The notes under the pieces were generated by a model, which saw only the letters and a list, made by a program, of their open reading frames with translations, did not search any database and was not told the origin of the DNA. Shown one piece after another: positions 5,371 to 46,500 of a DNA stretch of 64,000 nucleotides. This stretch comes from Deroplatys truncata (taxonomy: Eukaryota > Arthropoda > Insecta > Mantodea > Mantidae), in the NCBI GenBank assembly GCA_030765065.1, contig CM060978.1:56386421-56450420 (forward strand), given 5' to 3'. The position numbers and the translations under genes were made by a program. Each line of letters starts with the position of its first letter. The stretch's first letter is position 1.

Positions 5371-5973
5371 TAGTCTTGTTTGTAAAACTTTTTTGAAGTA
5401 ACTTCAGCATTTCCTGAGAAGATGGACATTTATACCATAAAATGTTATTCACAGAAAAAGCTGCTCAACACAAAAATGAAGCAAGAAAACGCGCATATGT
5501 TTGCAAAGAGAGAATCCAAATAGCTTGCCACACACAAGCTACCGTACTGAACAGTACTACCAATTTATAGACCAAAGTTTCCCCTAAAATACAGGCTAAA
5601 GTTTACCTCTCTACTACAAATTGTGTAGCAGTTTATATTATTGGTGCGAAGTGTTGGAGATGCTGTTCCATTTTTAAAATATGTATGTCGTGCATATAAT
5701 AGAACATATATATTATATTATATTGAAAAGGAAATTCCAATCTATAAGAGTGCACAAAAAACCAAGAATGTAATTTTTTGAAACTTTTTGCCATTTAGTC
5801 TCCTCTTAAAGTATGACTGATCTTTAGAACATTAACATTTATATACATTTAGAGGAACATTTTTAACAGCACACAAAATTTAATTTTGGATTGTAAAACT
5901 ATTATTGGAGAAGTAATACTGGAATCTAATATTTCATTAAAATTATTGTTACGAGCAAGGATCAACTTTTATT
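5371..5973. other. Unassigned AT-rich sequence
   Basis: No gene or recognised repeat was seen. It is AT-rich spacer between the LINE fossil and the first family H copy. Confidence 0.5.
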
Positions 5974-6108
5974 ACTTTCTCTAGTACATATAGTAAGTAG
6001 GGGAAGTATTGTATTCCACCCAAAAATTCGATACCGAGATTTCACCGGAAATACATATTTTGAGAACCCCTGAATCCAAAAAAAGCATTTTTGGAAACAT
6101 GTCCGTGT

Positions 6109-6140
<32 letters not shown>

Positions 6141-6884
6141 CTGTGAACAGCATAACTCAGAAACGAACAGTCGGATAAACACTAAACTTGGTATTTAGGT
6201 TCAGTATCTTCCAGAGATGCGACACGAACGTTTTCAAGAAAATCCCCCACCCCAGATTACCCTTTACATGGTAGATTTTTCGAAAATTTTAATTTTCTCA
6301 AAAATGGCTCTAACGATTTTGATTAAAATATCATATGTTTAAGATATTTTTATGACAAATAAAATGTATATCTTGAATTTCCTGGAAATGTCTCCAAAAG
6401 CATTCTTCATTGTGAACCACTTTTGCATAACTGGTAAACCATAAGAGATAGACAAAAGTTTACTACACAAAAAATGTAGATCGCGTTAAAGTACACCATT
6501 TATGTCATATACATTTTTTTGTTGAGTGAACCATTTTCGAGATATTGCTTGTTGTTCCCTTAAATTTTTCAATACTTATTTTATCAAATGGGAATTCGTT
6601 ATTCATTTTTTTTGTCTTGGATATGCAAAGAGTTATAATCTGTGGCAAAGGGAATGGTGCTGCACCTAGCAACCAGCTATTAAGAGATATGTATGTGTTT
6701 AAAGGCTACTGTTTTTCTATATTGCCCTTGTAAATATATTTTCCCCTTACATCTACAAGAAAATTAGCAATAAGATAGAGTCTGCAAATGTTTATCTCGA
6801 TTAACATGAAGTAGATGGAAAATAAGCGTTTGTAAAAATAGTTTTACAAGAGTAGAGAAGGTCATTTGAGTGTAACACATCAGA
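5974..6884 (-). mobile_element. Family H element, full length (copy A)
   Basis: Reference-type copy of the dominant repeat. The left edge is ACTTTCTC followed by the near-palindrome around CTAGTACATATAG and 'gtaagtaggggaag'; the right edge is GAGTAGAGAAGG...ACACATCAGA before a T run. A (GT)n tract of about 30 nt sits at 6108-6140 in the body. Strand is given with the TCTGATGTG end taken as 5', so this copy runs right to left. It has no significant ORF. It is adjacent to copy B in the same orientation. Confidence 0.85.
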
Positions 6885-6901
6885 TTTTTTTTCTAAGTTT
6901 T

Positions 6902-7703
6902 ACTTTCTCTACTACATATAGTAAGTAGGGGAAGAATTGCATCCCACTCAAAAAATGTTATGCCGATATTTCACCAGTGTCAGTTTTGAGGTGCCCTGAA
7001 TCCAAATAAAGCATTTTTGTAAACATGTCCGCGCGCGTGTCTTCTGTCTTTGAACAGCATAACTCAAATACGAAAAGTCGGATAAATACTAAGTTTAGTA
7101 TCTTCTAAGGATGAACACGAAGAATTTCAAGAAATCACGCATCCCAGACTACCCTTTACGTGAAACACTTTTCGAAAATTTTGATTTTCTCAAAAATGGC
7201 TCTAATGATCTTGATTAAACTATCATATGTTTAAGTATATCTTGAATTTTCTGGGAGTGTGCCCAAAAGTCCTCTTCATTCTGAATGACTTTCGTATAAC
7301 TGGTAAACCCTAAGAGATAGACAAAAGTTTACTACACAAAAATATATGTAGATCTGTTTAAAACACACAATTTATGTCATATATGTTATTTTTGTGGAGT
7401 GAACTATTTCCGAGATACTATTTGCTTTTTTTAATTTTCCAATCTTACACTTTTTCTCAAACGGGAATTCGCTATTCCTTTTTTTATGTCCTGGACATAC
7501 AAAGAGAATGAAATGCTTCACATAGCAGCCAGCGCTTAAAAAATTTGACTATCGCTTAAATACTACCATATGCCCCTTGCACCTACAAGCAAATTAGCAA
7601 TAAGATTAACATCTTGATTAACATGAAGCATATGGAGAATAAGCGTTTGTAAAAATAGTCTGTTCTAGAATAGGGAGGGTTTTGGGAGTGCAACACAGCC
7701 GAA
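6902..7703 (-). mobile_element. Family H element, full length but diverged (copy B)
   Basis: This copy follows copy A head to tail with only a T-rich junction between. It has the same order of segments, shorter by small deletions, with a mutated distal end (GAATAGGGAGGG...AACACAGCCGAA). Greater divergence than copy A suggests an older insertion. Confidence 0.8.
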
Positions 7704-9915
7704 TTTTTGTTAGAAATGCACAGGATTATAATAATTAATTTTGTTACAATAATGTTTAACGAATCTGTGTTAACTATTTTAGGCTATATTTGTTGAAATT
7801 ATCAACCTGGGAGGGTATAGATTATGTACGTAGTGAGTGGTTAGAAGAATTTATGTGTGTTTTACTCTGTAAACGTTTTATTTATAAAAATATTTGTTAT
7901 AATATAATAAAACTTAGTTATAAGAATATTAACCTTCTCGTTGCTTCGTGCTCAGTATTTGCTTATAAGAGGATTATATAAGTGATAGAAAAAAATGAGG
8001 CGTGTTAAGGGGTTGAGGAATGGCAACAACGTGGTGTCAGTAGTTAATAAAGCCATCTGTCTATAGTTTATGAAGCCAAATGTCAATAATTAATCAATCC
8101 AAGTGTCAATCAACAAATTTAATGTCAAAAATGTGTGTCCATTTGTGCACCTGCAGGGCCACACGTGTGGAATGGCCAGGACAAGGGACAACGCGCAAAC
8201 TTATCCGCAATTATAGTTCCAATAATTTAATAATTTCTATGCAAAAGTCTGCATTGAATAATATGAAAGTGAAGATAATCAGTTTTATATGAATACTATA
8301 CAGAAAAAGTGATGTGGGTGACGAATCAGGTGTTTTTTTTCGTCTTGTCGGGTCTATCTGGATATTTGCAATAAAAGCTGAATTTTAACCGTGTAGGTGT
8401 CGGCGATTGTTCAAAATTTTATTTTCTGATACTGCTGAGTGGTTTGCTTGCAGTGATTTCATGAGCGCCTCTCCAGACTGTATTAATTTGTGTAAAAGCT
8501 TTTACTCCCTCGCTATTTGATATTTTATAAGAAATACTTACCTTGTAATGTCAGGTGACTTTTCCCTGTATACTTTATTATTATTATTGATATAACTTTT
8601 CTTGATAAAATATTTTAGAAAGATTTCCCACCTGGCACGGAAAAAAGCGATAGAGGACCAGTGGTTTCATATAAACCCAAAGAGAAAAAACAATTTTAAG
8701 AGATGAATTGTAAAAGTTTCTGCTTTTACTTACTATACATGAGGATATAACAAGAGAAAGGTGTTATCCGAGCCAAGATACATTACTATAGCGAATTTAC
8801 ACAAATACATGTTTTTAAGGCTATGGATAAAGGGAAGGGAAGGAAGGAGGGGGAGATACAGACAGAAAAACATACCAAATGTCTTAACTTATTCATTTTA
8901 TAGCATGTACTTAATAATAGGTACAGGAACTATGTTTTCCATCCCAAAATTTAAATCTATATTTCACCTAAAATGCACTCTCTGAGGTTCCCCAAAATCC
9001 AAAGAAAGTACAGGGTCATTATAAACCATTTATACAAAAAGGAACTTGAATTGTTAAGAAAGTAAGACAGATAAGGTATCTTTATTGGTGTTAAATTATT
9101 AAAGTTATTACACAAATGCTACAGGCATATGTAGGATAGAAGTTAAAGGTGACAAAAAGATACAATAGAAAAAGAAACAAATAAACAGAGATAAATTGAA
9201 TCTGAAAACGTGAGGCGCTTGCGGGGATATAATTGTTTCGGCGGGAGTCGGAGCTGCGGCAGCCGCGTGGTGGCCACAGTTTTTGTAGTTTGCAAGGAAA
9301 AATAACACAAAGTTTCTGTCTAACAAGCAAAAGTTAATGTTTTACATTTCAAAGGATTTAGAGGAATGCGTTCCCCAGTATGTGAAAGTGTTTTGCTATT
9401 TTTTACACAGTAAAAGAATAATTTAAAACCTTGTATGGGCGTGAAAAGCAGTGAAACTTCGGGGTGAGTGTGTTGCTAGTTTGAGATTCCTCCGCGCTGA
9501 AAACCTGACTGTGCCGCAAATCTCCAAGGCAACGCTACAAAAAATTATGTCAAGCGAGATCCCTTCAGAGAACTTGGACCCAGATGTTACCTTCAGACCG
9601 GGATTTAGGGACGCTGAAGGATTACTCTCTTCAGTACAGAAGGGGGATGCCTAAACAACAGGCATGTGTGAGCTCTTGTGTATTCATTTGATGCTCATTA
9701 AAATACGTTCTACAGGAACATTGTACGTAAAGTTACGTTTTATTTTTATATCTGTTCACTACGTTTGACGGTCAAAAGAATTTTAAGTATTCCACATTTG
9801 TATTTCCTCTACTGTTTACCTAAAGCAGAGAAAATATTAAATTGAACATTAAGATTCCACCAGAAATATACGTTTTGAGATTCCTTGAATGCACTAAAGA
9901 TATTTCAGTAAACAA
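7704..9915. other. Unassigned; scattered family H scraps
   Basis: No gene is recognised. Two small family H remnants are visible: 8930-9010 (body near the hairpin end) and 9805-9910, which abuts the next copy. A GC-rich patch at 9215-9300 and an open frame at 9451-9654 stand out from the AT-rich background, but neither matches a family I recognise. Confidence 0.5.
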
Positions 9916-10284
9916 TCTGATGTATTACACTCACATGACTTTCTCTACTCTTGTACAAACTATTTTTACAAACGCTTATTCTCCATATGCTTCATGTTAA
10001 TCGAGATATCGAGATGTTAATCTTATTGCTAATTTTCTTGTAGATGCAAGAGGAATATGGTAGACTTTAAGCGATAGTCAAATATTTTAAGAGCTGGTTG
10101 CTATGTGGAATATTCCATTCTCTTTGCATTACCAGGACCAAAACAAAAAATAATAATAAATAACAAATTTCCACCTTAAAAAATTATAAGTATTGGAAAA
10201 TTTAAGGGAATAACAAAAATGGTGCATTCAACAACAAAAATGTGTATGACATAAATTGCGTATTTTAACGCGATCTACATTTTT
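9916..10284 (+). mobile_element. Family H element, 5' part of a split copy (C)
   Basis: Begins TCTGATGTATTACACTCACA and proceeds in consensus order to 'gcgatctacattttt', where copy D begins. The missing remainder starts right after copy D at 11168, so C and E are one element split by D. Confidence 0.85.
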
Positions 10285-11167
10285 ACTTTCTCTACTACGT
10301 ATAGTAAGTAGGGGAAGAATTGTATTCCACCCAAAATTTCGATACCGAGATTTCACCAGAAATACATGTTTTGAGATCCCTGGATCCAAAAAAAGCATTT
10401 TTGGAAACATGTCTGTGTGTCTGTCTGTGAACAGCATAACTCAGAAACGAACAGTCGGATAAACACCAAACTTGGTATTTAGGTTCAGTATCTTCCAGAG
10501 ATGCGACACGAACGTTTTCAAGAAAATCCCCCCACCCAAATTACCCTTTACACGGAAGATTTTTTGAAAATTTTAATTTTCTCAAAAACGCCTCTAACGA
10601 TTTTGATTAAAATATCATATGTTTAAGATGTTTTTATGACAAATAAAATGTATATCTTGAATTTTCTGGGAATGTCTCCAATAGTATTCTTCATTGTGAA
10701 CGACTTTTGCATAACTGGTAAACCTTAAGAGATAGACAAAATTTTACTACACAAAAATGTAGATCGCGTTAAAATACACAATTTATGTCATATACATTTT
10801 TTTGTTGAGTGAACCATTTTCGAGATATTGCTTGTTATTCCCTTAAATTTTTCAATGCTTATTTTCTCAAATGGGAATTCGTTATTCATTTTTTTGTCTT
10901 GGATATGCAAAGGGTATTAATCTGTGGGAAAGGGAATGGTGCTGCACCTAGCAACCAGCTATTAAGAGATATGTATATGCTTAAAGGCTACTGTATTTCT
11001 ATATTGCCCTGGTAAATATATATTCCCCTTACGTCTACAAGAAAATTGGCAATAAGATAGAGTCTGCAAAAGTTTATCTCGATTAACATGAAGTAGATGG
11101 AGAATAAGCGTTTGTAAAAATAGTTTGAACAAGAGTAGAGAAAGTCATGTGAGTGTAAAACATCAGA
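10285..11167 (-). mobile_element. Family H element, full length, nested (copy D)
   Basis: Complete copy from ACTTTCTCTACTACGTATAG to ...ACATCAGA. It lies in opposite orientation inside copy C/E. Because the host copy is known from its paralogues, this insertion exposes the termini and the target, a T run in 'tctacattttttgtgtag'. Confidence 0.9.
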
Positions 11168-11655
11168 TTTTTTGTGTAGTAAACGTTTGTCTATCTCTTA
11201 TGGTTTACCAGTTATGCAAAAGTCGTTCATAATGAAGAATACTTTTGGAGACATTCCCGGAAAATTCGAGATATACATTTCATTTGCCATGAAAATATCT
11301 TAAACATATGATACTTTAATCAAAGTCGTTTGAGCCATTTTTTAGAAAATTAAAATTTTCGAAAAATGTTCCATGTAAGGGGTAGTTTGGGGTGGGGGAA
11401 TTTTCTTGAAAACCTGCGTGTCGCATCTCTGGAAGATACTGAACCTAAATACCAAGTTTTGTGTTTATCCGACTGTACGTTTCTGAGTTATGCTGTTTAC
11501 AGACAGACTGACAGACAGATACACCGACACACACACGGACATGTATCCAGAAATGCTTTTTCGGATTCAGAGGGCCTAAAAACATATATTTGCGGTGAAA
11601 TCTCGATATTGAATTTTTGGGTGGAATACAATAATTCCTCTACTAGTAGATAAAG
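11168..11655 (+). mobile_element. Family H element, 3' part of the split copy (E)
   Basis: Resumes at 'gtgtagtaaacgtttgtc', exactly where copy C stopped, and continues to the hairpin end (here degraded, 'cctctactagtagataaag'). Confidence 0.85.
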
Positions 11656-12079
11656 CAAAAAACCCTATTGTATTAAAATCACACCTTTCTCTGTCCAATG
11701 TAACATTCTTTCATAGCTATTATGCAAATTATTGTAAAAAGATTTAATTTCTTCTTAGAATTAATCATTATAAATGTTTTCCGAAATGGCGTCAATACAT
11801 ATATTGTTTTAGTTACATAGAAGTATACAGCACACTAATACGACAGTCAAATATTTATAAAGAAGCCTGCTATATGTATATCGGACCTGCTATTTTGAAT
11901 TCTCTTTGCATAGCCTAGTAAGAAAGAAAAGATTAAGGAACCAAAACGTTTATGGCTTGAAATACTGGAAATTACGATAAACAACAGAAATACGCCATGA
12001 ACGTCTAAACTACAAAAAATTATTTAGTACGAGTTGATGTTTTAAAATCCTCTATATTTTTTTGAAGTGAGGTTTTATT
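11656..12079. other. Unassigned spacer
   Basis: AT-rich sequence with a weak trace of family H near 11900. No gene seen. Confidence 0.4.
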
Positions 12080-12894
12080 ACTTTCTCTACTACATATAGT
12101 AAGTAGGGGAAGTATTGCACTCCATCCAAAAATTCGATATCGAGATTTCACCGGAAATCCATGTTTTGAGGCCTCCGGAATCCATAAAAAGCATTTTTGT
12201 AAAAAGTCGCGTGTGTATGTCTATGTGTCTGTGAAGAACATAACTCAAAAACTAAAAGTCGGATAAATGCCAAATTTAGTATTTAGATCCAGTATGTTTC
12301 AGATGCGACACAAAGATTTTCAAGGAAATCCCTCTACTCCACATTACCCTTTACATGGAGCATTTTTAAACAAATTTGATTTTCTTAAAAATATCTCTAA
12401 AGATTTTGATTAAAATATCACCCATTTAAGATAATTTTATGCCAAACGAAATGTATATCTTGAATTTTCTGGGAATGTCCCCAGAAGTCTTCTCATTCTG
12501 AATGACTTTTGCATAACTTGTAAACCGTAAGAGATAGACAAAGTTTTACTACACAAAGCATGTAGATCTCATTAAAACACACAATTTATGTCATTTACAT
12601 TTTTTTTGTCAAATGATAAAATCTCGTATTCCTTGTTATTTTTTTGAATTTTCCAATACTCATACTTTACGTTTTTTATGACCTGGACATGCAAAGAGAA
12701 TGGAATGCGCCACATAGCAACCAGCGGTTAAAATGTTTGACTATCACTTAAAGCCTACCACATTCCTCTTGGATCTACAAGAAAATTAGCAATAAGATTA
12801 ACATCTCGATTAACATGAAGCATATGGAGAATAAGCGTTTGTAAAAATAGTTTATACAAGAGTAGAGAAAGCAATGTGAGTGCAACGCAACAGA
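12080..12894 (-). mobile_element. Family H element, full length (copy F)
   Basis: Both ends present (ACTTTCTCTACTACATATAG; ...CAACGCAACAGA). Moderately diverged, with short internal deletions. Confidence 0.85.
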
Positions 12895-13799
12895 TTTTTA
12901 CATATGGTTTCATAGTTGTATAACTTTACCCAGAATAAACATCTTTACAGGTATCTAGAAAAAAATTTGAGTAATGCAGTTTATGAAATATTGATATTTT
13001 AATAAAAACTGTTAAACATTTTTGAGAAAATAAAAAAAATGAATAGCTTCCATTTAAAGGTTAGTTTGAAGTAGTGTTAGTATCTTCAAAAGCTTCATGA
13101 TGCATACTTAGGAGATGGTGAACTTAACCAATTTTTCGTTTTTCAGTAATTTTTACACATACATTTTTCTAAAAATAATTTTCTTTTAAACCCAGGAAAA
13201 ATCGCAAAACATCAATTTTCTGTGAAATCTGTATAGATATCTGAGTAGTTGGTAAACTGATAGAAATTTTTCATATTAAGTTTCACAGAGTTGGCAAGTT
13301 TTTTAAATAATATTTTAGTGGGATATATTTTACTCCAATTTGTATTTAACAGATAGATCAAATAAAATTCCGCTTTCCGAAAGATGTAAACAAGTTACAT
13401 TTGAGTCCTATTTTTGTTTTACAAATTTCCCAATAAAAGCTTATATGTAGTAGCTAAATATTTTTCGGAATTTGTCCGGTCTTATGACATTGCTTAACCA
13501 AAATATTTCTGCACAAAGTAAAAGAGACTGGCAAGTAATTTGTGATGATTAAGGGATGCAAAACATCCGGATTGGTTACTATTAAAGCAACTATAATTTG
13601 CCACTCAGAAATTTATATTAATTTGGGTTAAGGGTAAATGTAGGTAAAATGTACATATTTTTAGAAATGCAGCAATCTTAGTTCTATGGTAGAGAATTAG
13701 TTTGTTGTTCGTAAGTTTGCAAGTTCAAATCTCCGTGAACTTTTTTTTCCTTTCATTTTAAATTAATGAGCAAAAATATAACAAGCTCAATTCATTTTT
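12895..13799. other. Old, strongly diverged family H-like sequence and spacer
   Basis: Around 12990-13230 phrases such as 'catttttgagaaaataaaaa' and 'tttcgtttttcagtaatttt' follow the family H order, but identity is low. A weak tRNA-like stretch (box A-like 'tggtagagaattag', box B-like 'agttcaaatctcc') lies at 13687-13735. No gene seen. Confidence 0.4.
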
Positions 13800-16271: not shown

Positions 16272-16721
16272 TATACAGGGTGAAAATCAAATAGGGATTT
16301 ACATCGAAGATCAGTTTTTCTAAGGTGCCGTTTCTTCTTTTGATTTTGAAGCTAAACTTCATAAGAATATTTTTAATAACTTCAGGAAAGAAATAGTATA
16401 CTAAAAGCAACAAAGTTATTTGTTGTTTATTTTAGAAAAAATATAATATGATAACTTTCATTAATTAGTAGTTGAAATATCTGGCGATGCCCGCGGTTTG
16501 ACGGTTTATCCTAGCATGTTTTATGCCTATGTTGCACTTGCTCAATATCCTTGCGTGTCTTTGGAGACATTCTAAAAATATTACACAAGCTACACAAGAG
16601 TAGGTAATTATAACTCTCAGGACATTACAAAGAAGAAAAATCTGATGTGATGCATTCATATGACTTTCTCTACCCCTATCGTTTATTAGGTAGATACAAA
16701 TTGTTCTTACTCAAGCTTATT
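16272..16721. other. Spacer with a truncated family H end
   Basis: No gene. 'tacagggtgaaaatc' beside the mariner resembles one end of a MITE of the kind at 46911-47158. 16633-16690 carries a TCTGATGTG-type family H end ('tctgatgtgatgcattcata', ACTTTCTCTAC) broken before copy H. Confidence 0.5.
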
Positions 16722-17560
16722 ACTTTCTCTACTACGTATAGTAAGTAGGGGAAGTATTGCATTCCACCCAAAAATTTGATACCGAGATTTCACCGGAAAT
16801 ATATGTTTTGAAACCCCCTGAATAAAAAAAATCATTTTTGGAAACATGTCCGTGTGTGTGTCTGTGAACAGCATAACTCAGAAACGAACAGTCGGATAAA
16901 CACTAAACTTGGTATTTAGGTTCAGTATTTTCCAGAGATGCGTCACGAAGGCTTACAAGAATATCCCCCACTCCAGATTACCCTTTACATGGAACATTTT
17001 TCGAAAGTTTTAATTTTCTCAAAAATGGCTCTAAGGATTTTGATTAAAATGTCATATATTTAAGATACTTTCATGATAAATAAAATGTGTATCTCGAATT
17101 TTCTGGGAATGTCTCAAAAGTATTCTTCATTGTGAAAGACTTTTGCATAACTGGTAAACCATAAGAAATAGACAAAATTTTACTACACAAACAATGTAGA
17201 TTGCGTTAAAATACACAATTTATGTCATATACATTTTTGTTGTCGAGTGAACCATTTTTGAAATATTGCTTTGTTATTCCCTTAAATTCTCCAGTACTTA
17301 TACTTTTTCTCAAATGGGAATTCGTTATGCATTTTTTATGTCCTGGACAAGCGAAGAGAATGGAATGCTCCACATAGCAACCAGCTCTTAAAATATTTGA
17401 CTATCACTTAAAGCCTAGCAATTCCCCTTGCATCTACAAGAAAATAAGCAATAAGATTAACATCTCAATATCTCGATTAACATGAAGCAAATGGAGAATA
17501 AGCGTTTGTAAAATAGTTTGTACAAAAGTAGAGAAAGTCATGTGAGTGTAACACATCAGA
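16722..17560 (-). mobile_element. Family H element, full length (copy H)
   Basis: Both ends intact (ACTTTCTCTACTACGTATAG; ...ACACATCAGA). The GT tract in the body is short. It abuts another copy in the opposite orientation (17571-18562). Confidence 0.88.
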
Positions 17561-17570
17561 TTTTTTTCTA

Positions 17571-18562
17571 TCTACTATATTTCAATTCAAATAAACCTTT
17601 GCAGAAATAGTCATATTACACATTCCATTATAGATACAAAGAGAACAGTGATAGTCAAGTGTTTAAGGAGAGGGCGGTATATGTTGGTCTTAAAACTCTA
17701 TACCGTTTCCATGCAATCGCGACAAACAACTGAATGTTGAAAGGGCTTCAAGAGAATTAACAAGAAATGAACATGTTATAATATGGTGAAACGCTACGAT
17801 TTCAGTTTACATCACACCGCCTTTTGAGTCACCTTTTAGCTGAAGATGGGAGAAAGATGTCTCCCGAAAGCGCTACTCTGTAAATATCAAGCGCAGATGT
17901 AATGTGAATTAAAAACGTAGCGACTCACCATATTATAACATCACAATTATTATTGCTTCTGTCAGGCATAAAGAAATGAACTATTCGAAACTTTAATAAA
18001 TGATATCTCAGAAACGCTTAAGCCACGAAAAACTTATTTAAAATAAACTATGTATTTTAAAGAGATCTACATTTTTTGTGTAGAACGTTTTCGTCTATCG
18101 CTTACCGTTTACCAGTTATACAAGATTATATTAAACTGCTTCCGAATGAAGAGGACTTCATATACTTTTCCCCGAAAATTCAACATACACATTTTATTTT
18201 TCATGTAAATATCTTTCATACATGATATTTTAAACAGAAACGTTACAGCTATTTTTTTAGAAAATCAGAAACTTCAAAAATGTTAGATGTAAAGTGTAAT
18301 TTGTGGTGGGAAGATTTTTTTGAAAATATTCCAGTCTCATACTTGGAAAATATTAAACCTAAATACCAAGCTTAGTATTTATCCAGCTTTTTGTTTTTGA
18401 ATTATGCTGTTTACAGACAGACAAAAACATGCACCGACATCTGTTCAGAAATGTTTTATTTGGATTCAGGGGTTCAAAACATATATTTCCGGTGAAATCT
18501 CGGTATCGAATTTTCGTGTGGAATGCAATACTTCCCCTACTTACTATACGTAGTAGAGATAG
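17571..18562 (+). mobile_element. Family H relative (second subfamily), interrupted by a MITE
   Basis: A diverged subfamily marked by 'cattatagatacaaa' and 'gatagtcaagtgttt' in its 5' part, shared with 23090-23805, 60114-60897 and 43191-43450. The 3' end is the standard one, with TACTATACGTAGTAG near 18541-18555. The foldback MITE at 17773-17941 is inserted in it. Confidence 0.7.
17773..17941. mobile_element. Foldback MITE, about 169 bp
   Basis: Inverted repeats of roughly 25 nt: 'atgttataatatggtgaaac' at 17773 and 'tcaccatattataacat' ending at 17941, followed inward by CGCTACG/CGTAGCG. The interior contains 'ctgaagatgggagaaagatg' and 'ctcccgaaagcgctactctg'. No coding sequence. Confidence 0.75.
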
Positions 18563-23805: not shown

Positions 23806-24047
23806 ATATATCTCGAATTTTCTGGGAATGTCTCCAAAAGTATTCTTATTGTGAACGACTATTGTATAACTGGTAAACCATAAGAGATAGACAAAATTTT
23901 ACTACACAAAAAATGTAGATCGCGTTAAAATACACAATTTATGTCATTACATTTTTTTTGTTGAGTGAACCATTTTCGAGATATTGCTTGTTATTCCCTT
24001 AAATTGTCCAATACTTTTTCTCAAATGGGAATGCGTTATTCATTTTT
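23806..24047 (-). mobile_element. Family H element, distal fragment
   Basis: Internal segment from 'tatctcgaattttctggg' to 'gcgttattcatttttt', where copy M begins in the same orientation at a T run. Confidence 0.75.
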
Positions 24048-24049
24048 TA

Positions 24050-24884
24050 ATTTCTCTACTACGTATAGTACGTAGGGGAAATATTGTTTTCCACCAAAAA
24101 ATTCGATACCGAGATTTCACCGGAAATATATGTTTAGAGACCCCCTGAATCCAAAAAAAGCATTTTTGGAAATATGTCCGTGTGAGTGTCTGTGTGTATG
24201 TGTCTGTGAACAGCATAACTCATAAACAAACTGTCGGATAAACACCAAACTTGGTATTTAGGTTCAGTATCTTCCAGAGATGCGACGCGAAGGTTTTCAA
24301 GAATGTCCCCCCACCCCAGATTATCCTTTACATGGAACATTTTTCGAAAATTTTAATTTTCTCAAAAATGGCTCTAACGATTTTGATTAAAATATAATAT
24401 ATTTAGAATACTTTCATGACAAATAAAATGTATATCTTGAATCTTCTGGGAATGTCTCCAAAAGTATTCTTCATTGTGAACGACGTTTGCGTAACTGGTA
24501 AACCATAAGAGATAGACAAAAGTTTACTATACATAAAGGTAGATCGCGTTAAAATACACAGTTTATGTCATAACATTTTTTTTGTTGAGTGAACCATTTT
24601 CGAGATATTGCTTGTTATTCCCTTAAATTTTTCAATACTTTCTCACAAATGGGAATTCGCTATTCATTTTCTTTTGTCCTGGTAATGCAAAGAGAATGGA
24701 ATACTCTACATAGCAACCAGCTCTTAAAATATTTGACTATCACTTAAAGCCTACCAATTCCCCTTGCATCTGCAAGAAAATTAGCAATAAGATTAACATC
24801 TCGATATCTCGATTAACATGAAGCATATGGAGAATAAGCGTTTGTAAAAGAGTGGAGAAAGTCATGTGAGTGTAGCACATCAAA
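24050..24884 (-). mobile_element. Family H element, full length (copy M)
   Basis: Both ends present (near-palindrome CTACTACGTATAGTACGTAG on the left; GTGGAGAAAGTCATGTGAGT on the right). Contains one of the recurrent ~70-codon frames starting MFHVKDNLGWG. Confidence 0.88.
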
Positions 24885-24894
24885 TTTTTTTTAT

Positions 24895-31396: not shown

Positions 31397-31546
31397 TCAG
31401 TCGCCGGGTCGGTAACCCATGTTCTTCCTCTTGAGGAACATGTAGATCTCCTTGAAAGTGGGTCGCAGTCTTTCGTCTCTTCTCCAGCACTCACACATCA
31501 GGTCGTAGATTTCCATGGGACAAAGTGTGGGTTTTGGCAGCAACAC
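31397..31546 (-). CDS. Ddr: Ddr terminal coding exon
   Basis: 150 nt, 49 codons plus TGA at 31397-31399; acceptor AG at 31547-31548. It encodes [20 protein letters not shown] followed by [11 protein letters not shown] (kinase subdomain XI with the invariant Arg) and a short tail ending YRPGD. It joins in phase 0 to GGELQ of the preceding exon, matching the DDR order 'LQvyL..P..CP'. This exon is the source of the tandem array at 31547-33020. Confidence 0.92.
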   Translation of the reverse strand: MLLPKPTLCPMEIYDLMCECWRRDERLRPTFKEIYMFLKRKNMGYRPGD

Positions 31547-34500
31547 CTGTAATGTCAATAATACACAACATGTAGGTCTTTTTGAAATGACTTCTCTCTT
31601 CTCCAGAAATCACTCATCAGGTTAGATCTACATGGTACAAGTGTGGACTTTGGATGCAATACTCGCAACAGAATGATACAAAACGTGTAGATCGCTTGAA
31701 ATGTCTGGTCTCTTCTCCAGCAATCTCACATCAGGTCGTAGATCTTCATGAGAAAAGTGTGAATTTTGGCAGCAAAACCTGCAACGAAAATAAAGTACAA
31801 CATATAGATCTCCTGAAATAGGTACTCGCAATCAGGTCGTGGATCTCTATGGGACAAAGTGAGGGTTTTGGCAGCAATACTTGTAATACAATAATACAGA
31901 ATGTGTAGACATTTTTGAAATGTCTTGTCTCCTCTCCGAAATCACACATCAGGTCGTAGATCTCCATGGGAAAACTGTGGCTCTTGGCAGAAATATCTGC
32001 AACGAAAATAATACATAACGTGTAGATCTCTTAAAATGGTTTGTCTCTTCCCCAGAATCACACATCAAGTAGTAGATCTCTATGGGACAAAGTGTTAGTT
32101 TCGGCAGCAACACCTAGAAAATACACAAACTGTAGATCGCCTCGAAATGGCTTGTGCTTCTCCAGAACTCAAGCTTTAAATTGTATACCTCCATGGGACA
32201 AAGTGAGGATTTCGGCAGCAACACCTGAAACAACAATAATGAACAAAAAAGTGAACTCATTGAAGTGGTTTTTTTCTACCCCAGAACACTCATATCAGGC
32301 TGTATATTTCTTAAGTAGCATTGCGTGAACTTCGGTAATATGATAATAATAATAGTAATAATATAAAAAATAGGACGTCCCTTCTCCAGCATTCATGCAA
32401 AAGGTACTCCAGTAGTAGAAATCAACGTGCAGATCTCCATAAACGTCTCTTGCAGTAGTGGCACGTAGATCTTAGTTCTCCCTGGGGCACAATCTAGACT
32501 TTGACAATAATACCTTTAACAACAGTAATAAGAATCAACGTGTGGATATCGTTAAATAAACCTACAGTACTCGCACCCTTAGTTACAGATCTCCATGAGT
32601 ATAATGCGAGTATAGGCAGCATTTCTTGCAAGAAAAATAATAACTCCTTGAAAGTGGGGTCTTGGGTCTACATGGGACAAAACGTGCGTTTCGGCAGCAA
32701 TTCTGCAACAACAAACACTGTCCTTGTAATTTCGGTGTTTCATCTCCTGCTCTCACACATCAGTTGTAGATCTCCCCAGGGCAAAGCGTGGGCTTCGACA
32801 GCAACGTCTGCAACAACAGCCAATATCCTTGAAATTTGGTAATTTGTTCTCCAGCATATATACTCCAATACTTGCACATCACGTCGCAGATCTCCATGGA
32901 ACAGAATATATGGTTAGACAACAAAATGGATGATAATGTAGATATCCTTGAAAGTAGGTGTTTCTTGTTCAGTTTGCGCATATCAGGACGCAGATCTCCA
33001 TGATTTTCGGCAACAGCTACAGGCAGATGACGTGCTTGCACCTTTGTACAGCAGGTTATCTAAAACAACTAAGTCGTTTAAATTTGTATATAGAAGAAGT
33101 AGACAAATGTTCAATTTGATGCTACAAAAAATTGTGGATATTAAATATTTTGTGTTGGAACATGTGTAAAAATGGTAATCACAGTAAATGAGTTTACGTA
33201 ATCGTTGTAAATTTAGGGATGCAATCAATCCTTACGGGATTTAATCTGACATTCAGAATAAGTAATAAAATTAAATAAGAAAAAGGCATCATTACCAAAT
33301 AAAGTAACGCACCATAAATCAAAACAGAAATTAACAGCTTTAAGTCGATAAACTGGCTGCAATGTCAATATCACTGCCTTCTTGAATTGTTTATAAGATA
33401 AAAATACGGAAATGATAATCATAATACGATTAACAGATGGAACTCAACGTTTCGGTTAATTAGTCTGTGTACTACGAGCTAAAACGTGTCATATTTCATT
33501 TTTTCTGTAACACAATATTAAGTGCTTTCAATTCTTTATTTCACATCAGCTAGTTTACATTTTTAAAATATTGCTTTCGGCTATAATGCAGAGCTGTTCA
33601 GCAATTTTCCGATATTTTATTTTTACGGAATTATTTTCAAACGGTCTATATTCAAAGCAACGTACATGTTATGAAAAAAACCTTTAAATCCATGTTATTA
33701 AACCAGTAACTTGAACATTATATCACAGTACGGTACTATAATATAAAGTGGCCTACAACATTTCAGTGAGATGTGTGGATTTGTTTGAAATATATTAACT
33801 TTTTTTGTTCTAGATTTAATATTTCTGCTTGATACTGACCATTGTAAAGAAATACACATTAGAGCTTTTTAAAAGTTCCTCAGACTTTGAGTGAAAAAGG
33901 AATGAACCCTTTTTAATTTCCATATTTTTTACTATTTATCGAATATCAAACCAACTTTGTGTCTTTTAGTAACCGTTCCGGAAGCTCCAACAAAAATTGG
34001 AAATTGTTGGTTGAAAACTATAACACGTGAATGATTTTAAGTAATAACATTTGAGGCAGTATTTTTAACACTTAAATGATTTTCAGTCTAATTATATAGT
34101 ATAAAATATAACAGCCCGCATGTTCAATAATGTTATGTGAATGTATTACGTAATTTAATAATGTAGGAACTGTGATAATGGTAGGTCAAAAGTTGCTAAC
34201 AATGAGGTAACAACGAGGTAACCTTGAGGCAATAGTGAATTGGAAGGTTTAATAATGCTACTGGTAATTCTTGGAGCAACATTAATGTAATCAAAAACTA
34301 GAAAGGCTAAAAATTTAAATAAAGGTATTCTATTGGTGTAGGATTAGCGAATCAGAAACTGAAGTAGAGCAAATTGTACAAATTCAGAAGTCAGTTGCTA
34401 GTAGACAGCGTTCCTAACTGGACGCGAGACGCGTCCTCGAGAAGTATAATACGTATCCAGTGCGAGACAACAATTAATTACGGCGAGGATATTATAAAGC

Positions 34501-37500
34501 TCACGTGTTTAAAAAGTGCAAGTAATTCATAAATAATCTCACAGCTCTCTATATCAATGAAGTGTTATTTAATCGTGTCAAAGTCAAGTAAAGTGAAGTA
34601 AAAATTATAATTTATATAAGCCTACATTCTTCACCAGCACCATCCCCTGCAAAGAGAAACATGTATCTACAAATTAATACTGGCGCAGCCGAGACAAACC
34701 TATATAAATAATATTTAAAGAAACACTCAAATTACAAAGTTAATTTTTTAAACTTGGTGCGAAGACCACCGAAAAGTGAAAACTGGGGCGAAGGCCACTG
34801 GAACTTACTACCATACGTGGGGCAGTTATTTCATCAAGTTCGGCTCCCCAACACTAGAACTAGAATACAACTCCAACCTCTTAAAACAATTACTTTATCA
34901 GGATTATTTAAAAAAATACCATACAGAATTATAATGTGGATTACAATAGGATAATTTAATGGATAATTCAAATGTGCTAAGGAGCTTTAAATATTGTAGA
35001 AATTCTTCAATCAAAAGCTCATAGCTAAAGCATAGGGCGTGAACCTAATAAAGAATCTACAGATCTTTGTTATTTTAAAATGTTTTCCTTAAAGTTTAGA
35101 AACGTATTGTATTGAAAAAGTCTATTTCTACATTTTAATCCAAACTTGTTGCATTTTCTGTATTGTGTCCTTGGAGTATCTAAAATGTAGAAGTTTTTAC
35201 ATCCAAAAAAGGATAGACATGAAACAATTGGTTCTTAAAAGATCCATATTACTGTAAATAATTCATATTTACTCTCAAATGAGCACAGAGGTCATGCGAT
35301 AGTTAAAATATTTTCCATTTTGTGCATTTCTTTGAAGTATCTAAAAAGCAAAAGTTTCTATATCCAAAAAAGAAAGACATGAAACAATTGTTTCTTAAAA
35401 AATCAGTATTATTGTAATCAATTTCATATTTACTCTCAAATGAGCACAAAGGTCATGCGATAGTTAAAAGAACTACCAATACTACATAAAGCTGTCATGC
35501 TGAATGTTTCTATTGCTTTCCGTAATATTGGAATTATTTAAAACCAACCAACAATGTAGAAACTATTACGCTTTGGTCATATCAGAAGAAGGCCCACCTG
35601 CAGTTCGCCACCATAGTACATATGCTCTGCGTTCTGAATCACTTGCTCGCTAGTGAGATGTTGGAATGGCTTCTCTCTGGCGAGACTCAGGATCTCCCAC
35701 AGTGTCACGGCGTAAGACCAGACGCTGCTCGAGCAGGTATACCGGTCCTGGAATCATCGAAGAAGTGACTTGCTTCAGATACAGGGCGTGTCAATGTAGC
35801 CTAGTCTTAAGAAATAGCGCACAACACTCGTCTTCCACCAATATTGATATATCATAAATATTCCGTGAAGAATGATGAAATAAATGAGTGCTGCAGGACA
35901 GGAGTAGCGTACTGGAGGTTAGGACGATTCGATTTACGCTGCCCCCGCAGAGAGGGCGTTTGTTCCAACACAAATTACCTTCTGCGGGTAATCAACGTTG
36001 TCACCTATACGCTTTATAGAAAGCTATTTACAATATGTTTCTAAAAGTTGGTACAAACAAAATAATTAGTAATGGCAATAAACACAACTAAAAAAATTTA
36101 ATTAGATGCATTCACATGAATTTCCCTACTAATTACACATTCATTATATATTTATACTATTAATATAAAATATATCCGCTCTACGTTACTCAGATACATT
36201 TTTCCCTAGGATATTTTTTTACTTTCTCTACTACGTATAGTAAGTAGGGGAAGTATTGTATTCCACCCAAAAATTCGATACCAAGATTTCACCTGAAATA
36301 TATGTTTTGAGGCACCCTGAATCCAAAAAAAGCATTTTTCTAAACATGTCCGTGTGTGTGTCTGTGTGACTGTCAACAGCATAGCACAGAAACGAACAGT
36401 CGGATAATCACTAAACTTGGTATTTAGGTTCAGTATTTCAAGGTTTTCAAGAAAATCCCTCCACCCCAGATTACTCTTTACATGGAACATTTTTTGAAAA
36501 TTTTAATTTTCTCAGAAATGGCTACGATTTTGTTTAAAATATCATATATTTAAGATACTTTCATGACAAATAAAATGTATATCTTGAATTTTCTGGGTAT
36601 GTCTCCAAAAGTATTCTTCATTGTGAACGACTTTTGCATAACTGATAAACCATAAGAGATAGACAAAATTTTATTATACAAAGATGTAGATCGCGTTAAA
36701 ATATACAATTTATGTCATATACATTTTTGTTGTTGTTGAGTGAACCCTTATCGAGATATTGCCTGTTATTCCCTTAAATTTTCCAATACTTATACTTTTT
36801 CTCAAATGGGAATTCGTTATTTATTTCTTTTTGTCCTGGTAATGCAAAGAGAATGGAATACTCGATATAGCAACCAGCTCTTAAAATATTTGACTATCGC
36901 TTAAAGCCTACCAATTCCCCTTGCATCTACAAGAAAATTAGAAATAAGATTATCTCGATTAACATGAAGCATATGGAGAATAAGCGTTTGTAAAAATACT
37001 TTGTACAAGAGTAAAGAAAGTAATGTGAGTGTGACACATCATTTTTAAAAATCTGACTATCGCTTTTGTCTCTATCCTTATACACACAACGAATGTGTAA
37101 ATGTACGACGGTTTATCTCAAGGAATAGGAAGTATAGAGTAGAATAAACTTTTGAAGAGTGAGTAGGGGAATTCATGGGAATACAACACATCAGACCTTT
37201 TGAGGTATGCGGTTCACAAATACAGACACGGACCTTTTTCTAACAATGGCTCTTTTTGCGTTTAGGCACCTTAAAATTCGTATTTACGTGAAATATCGCT
37301 ATGGAATTTTTAGTATACTATAGGGTGAAAGAAGAAAAAAATGAAAATAGTTACTCTATTTGACAGGTTAAGGTATACTTTTTCCCCCTGATTATCGGAG
37401 GGTTCTTGGCTCCGCTCCAACGAGAATATTGCATCTATGCCTCACAAGGGGGCGTCCCCAGGAGGGAGGAGGAGGTGAGAGGAGACACCGGGTGGCCGGA

Positions 37501-40500
37501 ACCAGAATTGGCGGCACAGCATTGATAGGGCCCTAACAGTTTTCGAGATTGAGACTCTCCGACAGTCGGATAGGCAGACTTGGGACCCCCGCCCCACACA
37601 GAGGGTTCAATGCCCCGTCCGGAAGGGGCGGTTTGTATATCTCGTCAACTAGCCGAAAGCCGAGGGACGGAGCCGCTCCGAAATAACATCGCCACACATT
37701 CAACCCTGGAACAGACTTAACGGGGTAAAGGATGCATGAAATAATGAACGGAACGAAATGGAGAGGGAGGCAATCCGGGGTTGAAGGAAACTACTCCAGC
37801 ATTCGCTGATGATCCGAAAAAACCTACGGGTCAGAGTGAGCAATCGCCGGGACCTCCGCATGGCGCCATCTCATTCGGTTTATATATACTTACCAAGAGG
37901 ATACTCTCCCAAGGAAGCCACCGTATTGGTGCTGGAGGTCTACTGCCGATCTCACTGTAGTCTTTGTGGTAGAGACCGCTGCACATCGCGATGTCAGCGA
38001 CTTTCACGTGGTAGCCTCGACCCACCAGGCAGTTTCTACACATAGTTAACAATATTTATAAGTTGGAAATATCTTTACATCATTTTGTATATAACAAATG
38101 ATAATCTAATGGACATCTCACCTGGCTGCCAGATCCTTGTGGGCAACGTTCTTTGATTCCAAATATCTCATTGCTGAAGCTACTTGTGTTGCCATGAAGA
38201 TTAGACACCCATAACTGAAACATGCAAATAAATCCACATTATCCTTTGATGAATAATATTAATTTGTGCAACGGGTAATAATCTTAATGATCCTGGCACG
38301 AGCATATGTTAAGGTGAGACATATTAAATTTATCCACGAGTTAGATTCAACATATTAAGCAATCTTAGCATTAGGAAATAAATCTTGAAAAAATTCGCAA
38401 TCCATTTCTGACATAATAAGTACGAGTCTTCATATTTTCGTAAATGAGATATGTAACGTTATAGTATCACTTCGAAATAAGTGAGCTAGAATTTTAATTT
38501 GGCAGTTTAAAGGTAATCAAGCATTTTATTCAAGTTACACTTGAGGCAGTATTTTTAACACTTAAATAATTTCAGTCTAATTATATAATATGTAAATTCA
38601 ATAACAGCCCGCCTTGAAGCAATATGTGTATATAATAATTTGTAAAATGTATGTAACAGTCATTGCATATGCTTATATTATTGTATTGATGTGTGATAAA
38701 GTTATGTGAATTCATTACGTAATTTAATAATGTAGGAGCTGTGAGAATAATAAGTTAAAAGTTGCTAACAATGAGGTAACCTTCAGGCAATAATGAGTTT
38801 AAATGTTACTTGTGATTTCTGGAAGCAATAATGTAATTTTAGTGACAGTTTATGAAAATAGCCAATCAACACCCAGAAAAAGCTTTAGTTAAATGAAGGT
38901 ATTCTATTGGAGCAGGATTAGCCAATCACATACTTGAAATACAGAACTTTACAAGTTTAGACGGCTGAAATCTATTCAGTTGCCTCCAAACAGTGCTCAT
39001 AACCAGACGCGAGATGTGTCCTCGAGAAATTAATTACGTATTCGTGTGTGACGAAAATAGTATTCGTGTTAAAAAGTGCAAGTATTAAATAAAAGAATCT
39101 CACACCTCTCTATATCAGTGAAGTGCTATTTAATTTGTGTCAAGGATTAATAAAAAAGGAGTGAATTAAAACCTATAATCTGTGTAAGCCTACATTCTTA
39201 GTCGCATCACGCCCTGCCAAGATATGCTTGTCTCTAAAATAATGCTGACGCAGCCGAGGCAAACATAATTATTAAATATTTAAAGAAACAGTTTAATTGC
39301 AAAGTTAATATTCTTTTAAACTTGGGGCAAAGGCACCTGAAAATACTTTGGGACGAAGCCTACCGGAAACTGTTTACTATTCGTGCGGTTGCAACTACTA
39401 CAAGTTGAGCTCCCCAACAGTTGAAATATAATACAGCTCCTTCAGTACAAACACTACAAATTGACGCCCAAAGCGTGGTGCAAACAATGTAAAGACAATA
39501 CCTACTTGAAATTGGCGTCCATACGTGAAATCAAAGAAAATACTACTTCACACTCCGGGCCAGTTTTCTCAGCCTACGGATTGAGAAGTTATGCAGTTTC
39601 TGTGCTGTACAGGCTATACCGTAAACACTGCCCACTGCATCGTGTCGTATCAATTTCGTCCGAAATGACTGTTTTGCACCGCTGTGTGTGCAGTGACTTG
39701 CACTCGTAGCGCAACAGTGTGCGCGTTGGTCTTCAATGGTGAAGGTTCCAGGTTCAAATACTGCCACTTAAAGGGACTTTTTATGTTTAGTAAATTTAAC
39801 GAGAACTGAGTTTGGCATAAAAGTGTCGTTTCACTTAATTAGTTTCTTGTATGTGAATTTCATTAAAACATAAATTGTTACTTGTTAGAACATGCAAATC
39901 CACTTTCTAGTGCATTCAGAAAGAAATTTATTTGCTAGAACGTTCTCGAAACATGAACAGAAATGAATAAAGAGCTCATTTTTTCGCAGGTGTGATTTGA
40001 ACTTCCGACCTTAACCATCACGCTGCTAGAGCATGTTAACAACGAGCATCACCGTAGCGCAAAGCAGCGGGCTGGTGAAGCGGTGTCAGCACCTGCATTT
40101 CGCATCGTCTGTAAAATGCAGGGTTACCTAGTTACCAATTCGCAGGATGAGAAGACTCACGCGGTATACGCATCCGCAGAGATGTAAACTGCTTTGAAAC
40201 TAAGTTAATTTACAGAAATTAAATTATGTTATCAGTTCTGTCGTACCTTCCATGCTTTTGGGGTCACTTTTAAGTACTATTGGCAACACTATTCTGCTAT
40301 AAGCCACGTTTCTGTGAAGCTCAAATGCAACTAGCAGCAGGTACCCCAGACCACAAGGCTAATATTCCACTCAATTAGTCGCACAGTGTAGTCAAGAGCA
40401 TGCTCAAGAAATTCGCCTAAATTATTCCACCTTTTTGACAACTTATTTGGAAACAAGAAGATTAAAAGCAGAACTATTGAAAGTAGAGGAGCATCATCGC

Positions 40501-43500: not shown

Positions 43501-46500
43501 TCTACCATCAAACAATTGATTCAAAACGTCCTAAATTATAGTATCTTACTAAGCCATTTTATTAGTTACAGCTGTTGAATTGGCAGAATTGCGTTGCCGA
43601 AAATCTGAGGCGACGATGGTTAAGTTCATTAGAAATACATTTTTTTTAAAAAAATAATTCCTTATAATAAAACATACCATCCTGCCAAAAATAGTGTGTA
43701 ATACATGCATGTGAAATGCATTATAAAAGCTCAGAAATACAGGGTTATTCAAAAGAAGGAACAGACTTTAAATATTTACTTCTAATGAAAACGACAGTAG
43801 ATAGCGACACATAGCCACATCATTGAATAGACGAAAGTTCAAAGTTTTAAGCCCCACCTATTAGTTCCATTCAGTGACTACAGCAGCACGTTTACGAGAA
43901 AATGGCGAAGCCACAGGAAAAGTCGTTTTCTGTGCTGCATTATGTAAAGAGTGAATCCATTGTCTCATTGCAGCGTGCATTTCGTTGTAAGTTCAACAAA
44001 GAGCCACCTCGTCATAAAAACTTTACAATTGATACAATAAATTCTTAGAAGATGGTTGCGTATACAAACGGAAAAACACTGGTCGTCCTCGCATAACAAA
44101 TGGGGCTCATTTCGAATACATAAAATAAAACTTTGAACTTTTCTCTACTGAGTGATGTATCGCATGTGTCACCATCTATTGTCGTTCATTAGAAATAAAT
44201 ATTTAAAGTCTTTATTTCTTTTTGAATAACCCTGTAGAAGCCTTACTTTGTCTCTTCTTTTCAATTTATTCCTTGATTCTTTAATAATGCACTTCATACA
44301 TTCATATCCCAAATATGTATCTATCGCTTGTTAATTGCATAAGAGCATAATTTCGCGTATACCTGACAGTCTGCATGTTCACTGGGGGTCCAGTAGAGCT
44401 GGTGACGGGCACCCTATACTGCAAGTAATGCGCCAGATCACCCATGTCGGGGTACTCCAACACTATCCATGGGGGCTTCTCCGTCGTACATATCCCTAAC
44501 ACCCGCGAGATATTGGGGTCATTCAAGCTGGCTAGGAACCTCACTTCCCGTAGCGCTTCGGACTCGAGGGCCTTGGAGTTGGTTGTCCTTACAGCCACCA
44601 TCTTCCCGGCGTTGGGTACTATCTCGCTCAGCCCCTCCGTCTCGCATAGGAACACCTGGATACAAGAGGATGCATGTTGTTACCTGGGAGTTGTACACGC
44701 TGTGGTAACTACAGGATCATACCCTGGGGGCGCAGTCCCCTGGCATTGAGGGACATGTGCAACTGGTCTATGCTAATTAATGTGTTTTCAGAACTCTGTA
44801 AGATGGGCTAGATGTTTAAGGGAAATGTATAGAATTTCATGAAGAAGTAAACCGAATAACCTACCCACTCTTCTACAAACTACTATTACAAAAGCTTATT
44901 ATTCTATATAATAATATTAATATTATTATTATTATTGTTTATTATTATTTAATCCCGTGGCGCTACAGCCCATGAAGGGCCATGACCCAATTGCTGGCCT
45001 CACTCCCACGTACGCACGGCAAAGGTGGGCAATTATCCAACCGATAAGGAGAGGTAATGTGGTCAGCATCAGGCATCTCCCAACCAAAATGTTGGCTTCC
45101 GTGGCCGGGATCGCTGCCTATCGCGGTTCCTCCCTTTCCTCACGATGCTGAGTGAGCACCAATCCTACACTCAGACTTCAAATCCACATCTTAAATAATG
45201 TCAGTCTAATTACATATATATTATGTAAATTCAATAACAGCCCGCCTTAAAGCAATATGTATATGAAACAATATATAAAAATGTTATGTGAATGTAGTAC
45301 GCAATTTAATAATGTAGGAGCTGTGAGAATAATTGGTTAAAAGTTGCTAACTATGAGCTAACAATGAGGTAACCTTGAGGTAATAATGAGTAAGAATGTT
45401 TAATAATGCTACTAGTCATTATTGGAGTAACAATAATGTAAATTTTGAGACAGTTTATAAAACAGCCAATCAACAAACAGAAAAAGCTTTAGTTAAATAA
45501 AAGTATTCTATTGGATTAGATTGATCCGCGGCAAAACAAACCCACGAGGTCAGTGCACCGTGGTGCAACACGGTAGCAATGCGCCCAGGAAAGTAGTTCC
45601 ATGCTAATCTCTGAATTTTAGAATAAATTTACCCTTAAATAGTATAATATTCTATACAAATACCTAAGGTTTTATTTAACGCTGATTTATACCGTAAAAC
45701 AGAGCTACAATCCTATGACGCAATTCGTAGGAGTCACCTGACATCCGGGTAGCGCAGAATATTGTTTACAGCCAGAAACCAGCAGTTGTGTTTAGTATCA
45801 TGGCGGACGGTGAATTTGCTCTTGTTTTTTCGTCGAATTACGTAAAGCATTAGCCGCGCGAACCATTGACTAATGGTGAAAAAACAATAATGTTGAATCC
45901 TTATTATAAGTTATGAGAGAAATATCCAACACTTTCCGCGAAAGAAATGGTGAAATTAACTTCTGAGTTCACCGGTGTTTCAAGTACAAGTATAAGCAGT
46001 GCTTGTGCAGAAAATCTGAAACGAGAAAAGTGGTTACATCCGGAAAAAAATAAGGCATATAAAATACGCGATGCAAGAATGTAGTGATTTTAAGAAGAAT
46101 GCAATTCGCGTAACAGTACACAATTTCTTTTTTTAAAATGAGCCGCCAACAGTTAATAAAGTGCCGCTTCCAGAGAGCGAATAAATTAGGTTATCGCATA
46201 CCTGTTACATTATTTTTCGCTCATTTATTTTAGAATTAACTATTATTATATGTGCAAACGTTTATTTTGTTGCAACTATCAATCTTATCACTTTTAACCC
46301 TTAACAGAATATGCTAGTCACCGTTTCAGTTGTCGAAATAAGGACTCTGTTCCTTTTTGCATTACGTGCCACTTGTACTGACCGCATGGTCTGAAAGTGT
46401 GACAGTATTTCTAGTGCGAATGGCGGAAGGATACATTATAGCGGTGCACTGGTCACCTGGGGTTTGTTTTGACGCGGATCAACCTCAGAGTGAATACAGA

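Follow-up and report, generated by a model that had tools for sequence, protein, structure and literature searches.

An intronic minisatellite probably derived from the terminal exon of a discoidin domain receptor gene in the mantis Deroplatys truncata

Minisatellites are tandem repeats with a unit of roughly 10-120 bp, and those that lie in introns form a class in which the repeats stand head to tail and the copies diverge from one another. The array described here, located in the last intron of a Ddr gene of Deroplatys truncata, resembles that class in its units of about 100-120 bp, arranged head to tail and diverged copy by copy, and is unlike it in that the origin of the unit is known, namely an exon of the host gene together with its acceptor. 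Exons themselves are also duplicated in tandem; as told in PMC9013439, a 2002 study put such duplication at about 10% of animal genes, and terminal exons are duplicated too, as in Drosophila pip and in the 3' variable regions of PGRP-LC. Compared with these cases, the Ddr locus is similar in carrying exon copies in tandem within one gene, terminal exons included, but unlike pip and PGRP-LC, where the copies are described as mutually exclusive exons in use, its copies are partial, number 14 and are apparently dead; the units are mostly short of one 10-12-nt segment and look non-coding. The locus also recalls pseudoexons or cryptic exons (PMC8819188), in that it is intronic, has putative acceptors and includes a few units with a short open frame, and it differs from them in that there are 14 copies, all from one real exon, for which splicing is at most predicted.

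An earlier note on this DNA had stated that no exon-derived satellite is known to have been described in a DDR gene. In the literature searched, which left most subscription journals outside and included PMC9013439 and PMC2257972, we likewise found no report of an exon-derived minisatellite in a DDR gene, although tandem duplication of terminal exons as such was already known (PMC9013439). What the locus offers is a minisatellite with a known parent, intact alongside, which serves as a reference for reading how the array grew and decayed and what became of 14 duplicated acceptors.

The window, by which we mean the whole 64,000-nt stretch analysed (contig CM060978.1 of assembly GCA_030765065.1, positions 56,386,421 to 56,450,420), contains the kinase exons of the host gene on its minus strand. 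Joined together, they have human DDR2 (E 8.7e-68, 231.6 bits) and DDR1 (E from 7.1e-62) as matches, followed among receptor families by MuSK at E 7.6e-45; the top of the match list is one EGFR chain at 1.2e-71, a value that comes from two summed 121-bit stretches. Judged from these matches, the predicted kinase domain is closest to DDR1/DDR2, and we therefore class the host gene as a discoidin domain receptor, a receptor of the collagen-binding type. Several of what we take to be its kinase motifs are degenerate, with VAVR for VAVK, HKD for HRD, DIA for DFG and SSVW for SDVW, which suggests a pseudokinase-like receptor. The parts of the gene needed here are as follows.

44368-44655, 37894-38035 + 38120-38215, and 35599-35744, minus strand: kinase exons with degenerate motifs; reading frames open in the exons read
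35599..35744, minus strand: next-to-last Ddr exon, upper boundary placed by eye; its donor lies at 35599/35598
31547..31568, minus strand: 22 nt of intron preceding the real last exon, included in the unit; unit search and alignment
31397..31546, minus strand: last coding Ddr exon, intact, 49 codons VLLPKP...YRPGD plus TGA; translation and DDR2/DDR1 matches

The true acceptor of the last exon reads TTACAG/GTG at 31547/31546 (minus strand), and the donor that the earlier note had placed at 35598 is correct, with the sequence ...CTGCAG/GTGGG. Directly upstream of this last exon, 14 same-strand copies tile 31569-33020 head to tail, with unit boundaries placed by eye; the copied unit starts about 22 nt inside the intron, includes the acceptor and ends after codon 36 of the exon's 49 (108 nt of exon). 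The units are listed from the exon outward, with identity to the exon in percent.

31569..31683, minus strand: U01, adjoins the exon, 77%; unit search, alignment, profile
31684..31803, minus strand: U02, 82%; unit search, alignment, profile
31804..31900, minus strand: U03, 84%, internal deletion; unit search, alignment, profile
31901..32016, minus strand: U04, 78%; unit search, alignment, profile
32017..32128, minus strand: U05, 79%, CTAG/GTGTTGCTG followed by 54 open codons; unit search, alignment, profile
32129..32248, minus strand: U06, 75%, TTGTTGTTTCAG/GTG, the best-looking acceptor, followed by 36 open codons; unit search, alignment, profile
32249..32365, minus strand: U07, 61%, site without AG; E 0.024 (single query), alignment, profile
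32366..32424, minus strand: U08, 59-nt remnant, 68% over the aligned part, site without AG; E 0.14 with the single query, 0.0026 with the unit profile
32425..32537, minus strand: U09, 65%; unit search, alignment, profile
32538..32640, minus strand: U10, 64%; E 0.012 (single query), alignment, profile
32641..32716, minus strand: U11, 64%, large internal deletion; unit search, alignment, profile
32717..32819, minus strand: U12, 70%; unit search, alignment, profile
32820..32932, minus strand: U13, 62%, site without AG, local TGGAG duplication; unit search, alignment, profile
32933..33020, minus strand: U14, outermost, 69%, truncated start; unit search, alignment, profile

Consisting of head-to-tail repeats of one unit at a single locus, the array is a minisatellite. 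About 13 tandem copies in the same orientation had been claimed, and tandem arrangement and orientation both hold, while the number is 14 if the 59-nt remnant U08 is counted. The exon with its intron tail (31439-31568, minus strand), run as one sequence against the window, returned 14 further copies at 31570-33016, all on the minus strand and 11 of them at E <= 2.1e-4, with the weaker three at 0.012, 0.024 and 0.14; the observation made earlier is thereby confirmed. A profile of the first matches gave zero matches in the reversed window, and on the E values of the copies and this empty result chance similarity was rejected, as was assembly duplication, since the units lie 15-38% off their majority. 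A profile built from the exon and all units scores the 14 units at E 4.8e-29 to 0.0026, values that are circular for the training units, and its best match in the window outside the array stands at E 0.6. Tandem Repeats Finder, suggested earlier as a check, finds the inner part (31475-32114, period 116, score 358) but leaves the outer half of the array unreported. Within the window the 3' part of the exon matches only the exon itself, and no arrays from other Ddr exons appeared when seven exons or exon-like stretches outside the extracellular part, with boundaries set by eye and without the additional juxtamembrane candidate at about 51272, were compared with it at E 0.01; copies turned up for the last exon alone.

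Three more Ddr-like paralogs lie on the same chromosome, at 58.4, 63.5 and 67.4 Mb, the four genes standing at 56.42, 58.45, 63.50 and 67.44 Mb, or within about 11 Mb of it. An intron precedes the last exon in two of the four, the 58.4-Mb gene among them, and in the 63.5- and 67.4-Mb genes the two exons are in one piece. Each of the three paralogs has a single copy of the exon segment, and there is no array in the stretches read, which comprise the whole 58.4-Mb intron and the surroundings of the exon at 63.5 Mb (3.1 kb before, 6.5 kb after) and at 67.4 Mb (8.9 kb before, 0.7 kb after); this makes the exon the source of the units. The segment, a conserved part of the kinase C-lobe, is encoded by human DDR1/2 as well, so that it occurs in four Ddr-like genes and in the human receptors, whereas the array was found in one gene only, and the direction proposed in the earlier note, from Ddr terminal exon to units rather than the reverse, is upheld. 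DNA queries against the 4.29-Gb genome (U01, the exon and 31570-32570, with very common words skipped and 32571-33020 left out) returned the array locus, one paralog exon and two A+T-rich matches of 41-45 bases on C6; a genome-wide satellite was rejected, as these searches place the array at the Ddr locus only. Before the missing segment described below, 23 sites distinguish the exon from the 58.4-Mb paralog, and the most frequent base among the units is that of the exon at 21 of them and that of the paralog at none, from which it follows that the array is younger than the split from the 58.4-Mb gene.

Identity to the exon drops with distance from it (Spearman -0.69, p 0.006), and the pattern is one of two blocks more than of a slope. 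Over the first 72 nt the difference from the exon is 11-21% in U01-U06 and 21-39% in U07-U14, two blocks that do not overlap (p 0.0003, with the boundary picked after seeing the data) and that a narrow gap separates, U06 standing at 0.211, U08 at 0.212 (33 columns) and U12 at 0.225. The earlier suggestion of outward growth with the nearest copies least decayed is right in so far as the outer units are more decayed, but U01, which adjoins the exon, is less exon-like (77%) than U02 (82%) or U03 (84%). Similarity between units depends weakly on the distance between them, and the inner units have few differences from the exon in common.

Nine of the ten judgeable units are 10-12 nt short in the segment from GGAGAAG to TTTCAAG (U08 was judged by eye, and U13, the tenth, comes out 10 nt short only if its second TGGAG word serves as the anchor); U03, U09, U10 and U11, which have larger gaps, were set aside from the 14. 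Over the same segment the exon aligns without gaps to human DDR2 and to the three paralogs, and it is therefore the ancestral form. Certain bases absent from exon and paralogs are also shared among units, as given here by their position k in the 130-nt unit (k1 = 31568): C at k76 in U03, U09, U10, U11, U13 and U14; A at k81 in U03, U09, U10, U13 and U14; and C at k129 in U02, U04, U05, U09 and U10. At k58 a G stands in 12 of 13 units and in the 67.4-Mb paralog, while both the exon and the paralog at 58.4 Mb have A, and the direction of this change is left open by the G of the 67.4-Mb gene. The common shortfall, together with bases shared by non-adjacent units, speaks for a founder that had lost its frame and was amplified within the intron, although there may have been two founders; it is this evidence that tells against the copy-by-copy growth from the exon that had been envisaged.

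We consider it probable, with some confidence, that the array is an exon-derived intronic minisatellite which arose from the terminal exon of its host gene and is now non-functional; as far as its sequence can tell, it is most likely a dead by-product of repeated DNA duplication in which a few units still look splice-competent. A tandem duplication of about 130 bp, extending from 22 nt inside the intron across the acceptor to codon 36 of the exon, would have come first, and the duplicated copy would then have lost some 10-11 nt and with them the frame. Unequal crossing-over or slippage within the intron may then have multiplied this frameshifted copy head to tail. Two or more rounds could account for the outer (U07-U14) and inner (U01-U06) blocks, or else the exon may later have served as template for conversion of the inner units; since then the units would have decayed in a nearly neutral manner, with the true exon intact at the end of the intron. 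The single founder, this order of events, crossing-over or slippage, and the lack of function are the parts of the history that we infer. Re-amplification of a long-decayed unit does not by itself account for the inner block, because the inner units share few differences from the exon; either a little-decayed source or partial conversion by the exon would serve.

Alternatively, the units, or at least the two blocks, might have budded from the exon serially at different times, the outer ones earliest, a history that we regard as rather unlikely yet deserving of attention. It would accommodate the stronger decay of the outer block and the closeness of the inner block to the exon with few shared differences, and it also draws on the missing segment, for which the best break points differ between the two blocks and for which one common deletion scores 144.4 as against 82.0 + 67.7 for separate deletions per block, about the price of a second event; these separate-deletion scores and differing break points weaken the case for one deletion, as does low support in the unit tree (one node at 87, the rest <= 63) for the founder history as a whole. 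Serial budding is harder to reconcile with the shortfall common to nine of ten judgeable units, with the k129 C common to inner and outer units against exon and paralogs, with the k76 C and k81 A that link inner U03 to outer units, and with U01 not being closest to the exon. A much more remote idea, to which we give hardly any credence, is that the units belong to a dispersed satellite or a mobile element, which gave rise to the exon or resembles it by chance; the window is indeed rich in other repeats, but the exon encodes a conserved part of the C-lobe that three paralogs and human DDR1/2 have as well, and apart from the array locus the genome queries yielded one paralog exon and two short A+T-rich matches.

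A different kind of reading concerns use rather than origin. U06, U05 and perhaps U09 might be spliced from the 35598 donor as cryptic or alternative terminal exons, yielding a receptor that ends soon after VLLPKP..., and the array might thereby adjust the amount of full-length receptor, a combined proposal that we think doubtful. In its favour, the candidate acceptor of U06 has 12 pyrimidines in a tract of 17, with YTNAY matched at 27 and at 15 nt, compared with 9 of 17 for the real acceptor and no YTNAY within 13-60 nt upstream of it (minus strand, window positions 31547-31606), where a TTGAC spotted by eye lies closer and probably too close; the open runs of 54 codons in U05 and 36 in U06 point the same way, as do the codon-position and synonymous-site signals given below. 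YTNAY is a loose motif, however, that by arithmetic should turn up by chance in about every second such stretch, and the predicted tails vary from unit to unit. Moreover, three of the 14 units (U07, U08 and U13) are without AG at or near the site, and eight of the 11 that have one run into a stop after 10-15 codons, the exceptions being U05, U06 and U11 (39 codons). Of 13 units, 7 have AG at the exact acceptor columns, which ranks 64th among 107 dinucleotides; acceptor AGs are retained no better than other dinucleotides. We might go further and speculate that in a pseudokinase-like Ddr the array serves, or served until recently, as a bank of terminal exons in competition, with a U06-type acceptor, on paper stronger than the real one, capturing part of the splicing, which is a shade less probable still; if true, receptors without the end of the kinase fold would be made, and a minisatellite would set the ratio of receptor forms.

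For the founder history, with its neutrally decaying units, the codon positions are the awkward evidence, as strict neutrality predicts neither a synonymous excess nor codon-position signals. Changes relative to the unit majority number 126:65:8 (nonsynonymous:synonymous:stop) against an expected 134.5:52.3:12.2, a mild synonymous excess (P 0.026, the events not being independent). Third codon positions are more variable between units in the outer block (p 0.008) and overall (p 0.012), with p 0.28 in the inner block, and with base class fixed the third position is high (p 0.039) and the second low (p 0.013); the outer-block majority differs from the exon at seven exonic sites, five of them synonymous (P 0.016). 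These tests draw on few columns and related copies and were chosen afterwards, and we build nothing on them; they are the best hint that some of the divergence may have arisen while the sequence was still coding. Unit substitutions are near neutral, and with this and the early stops in eight of 11 the units do not present an open frame under purifying selection.

The locus raises the question of how the true last exon stays spliced with acceptor copies upstream and only a 22-nt tail in front. We note that this intron-like tail is all that precedes the real exon before exon-derived sequence begins, and the branch point of the last exon may, by its sequence context, be non-canonical or fall within sequence that was once exonic.

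Some further features were observed along the way. The 67.4-Mb paralog has DHA in place of DFG and retains SDVW. Interspersed repeats are many in the window, with at least 61 rows in its self-comparison, 76-94% alike among the matches listed; examples are given below.

5967-7708, 10280-12899, 16717-17571, 24043-24894 and 36214-37041: interspersed repeats; window self-comparison

Separate from the array, the same Ddr intron holds near its donor a 161-bp tandem duplication (35171-35469) of 1.9 copies with 87% matches.
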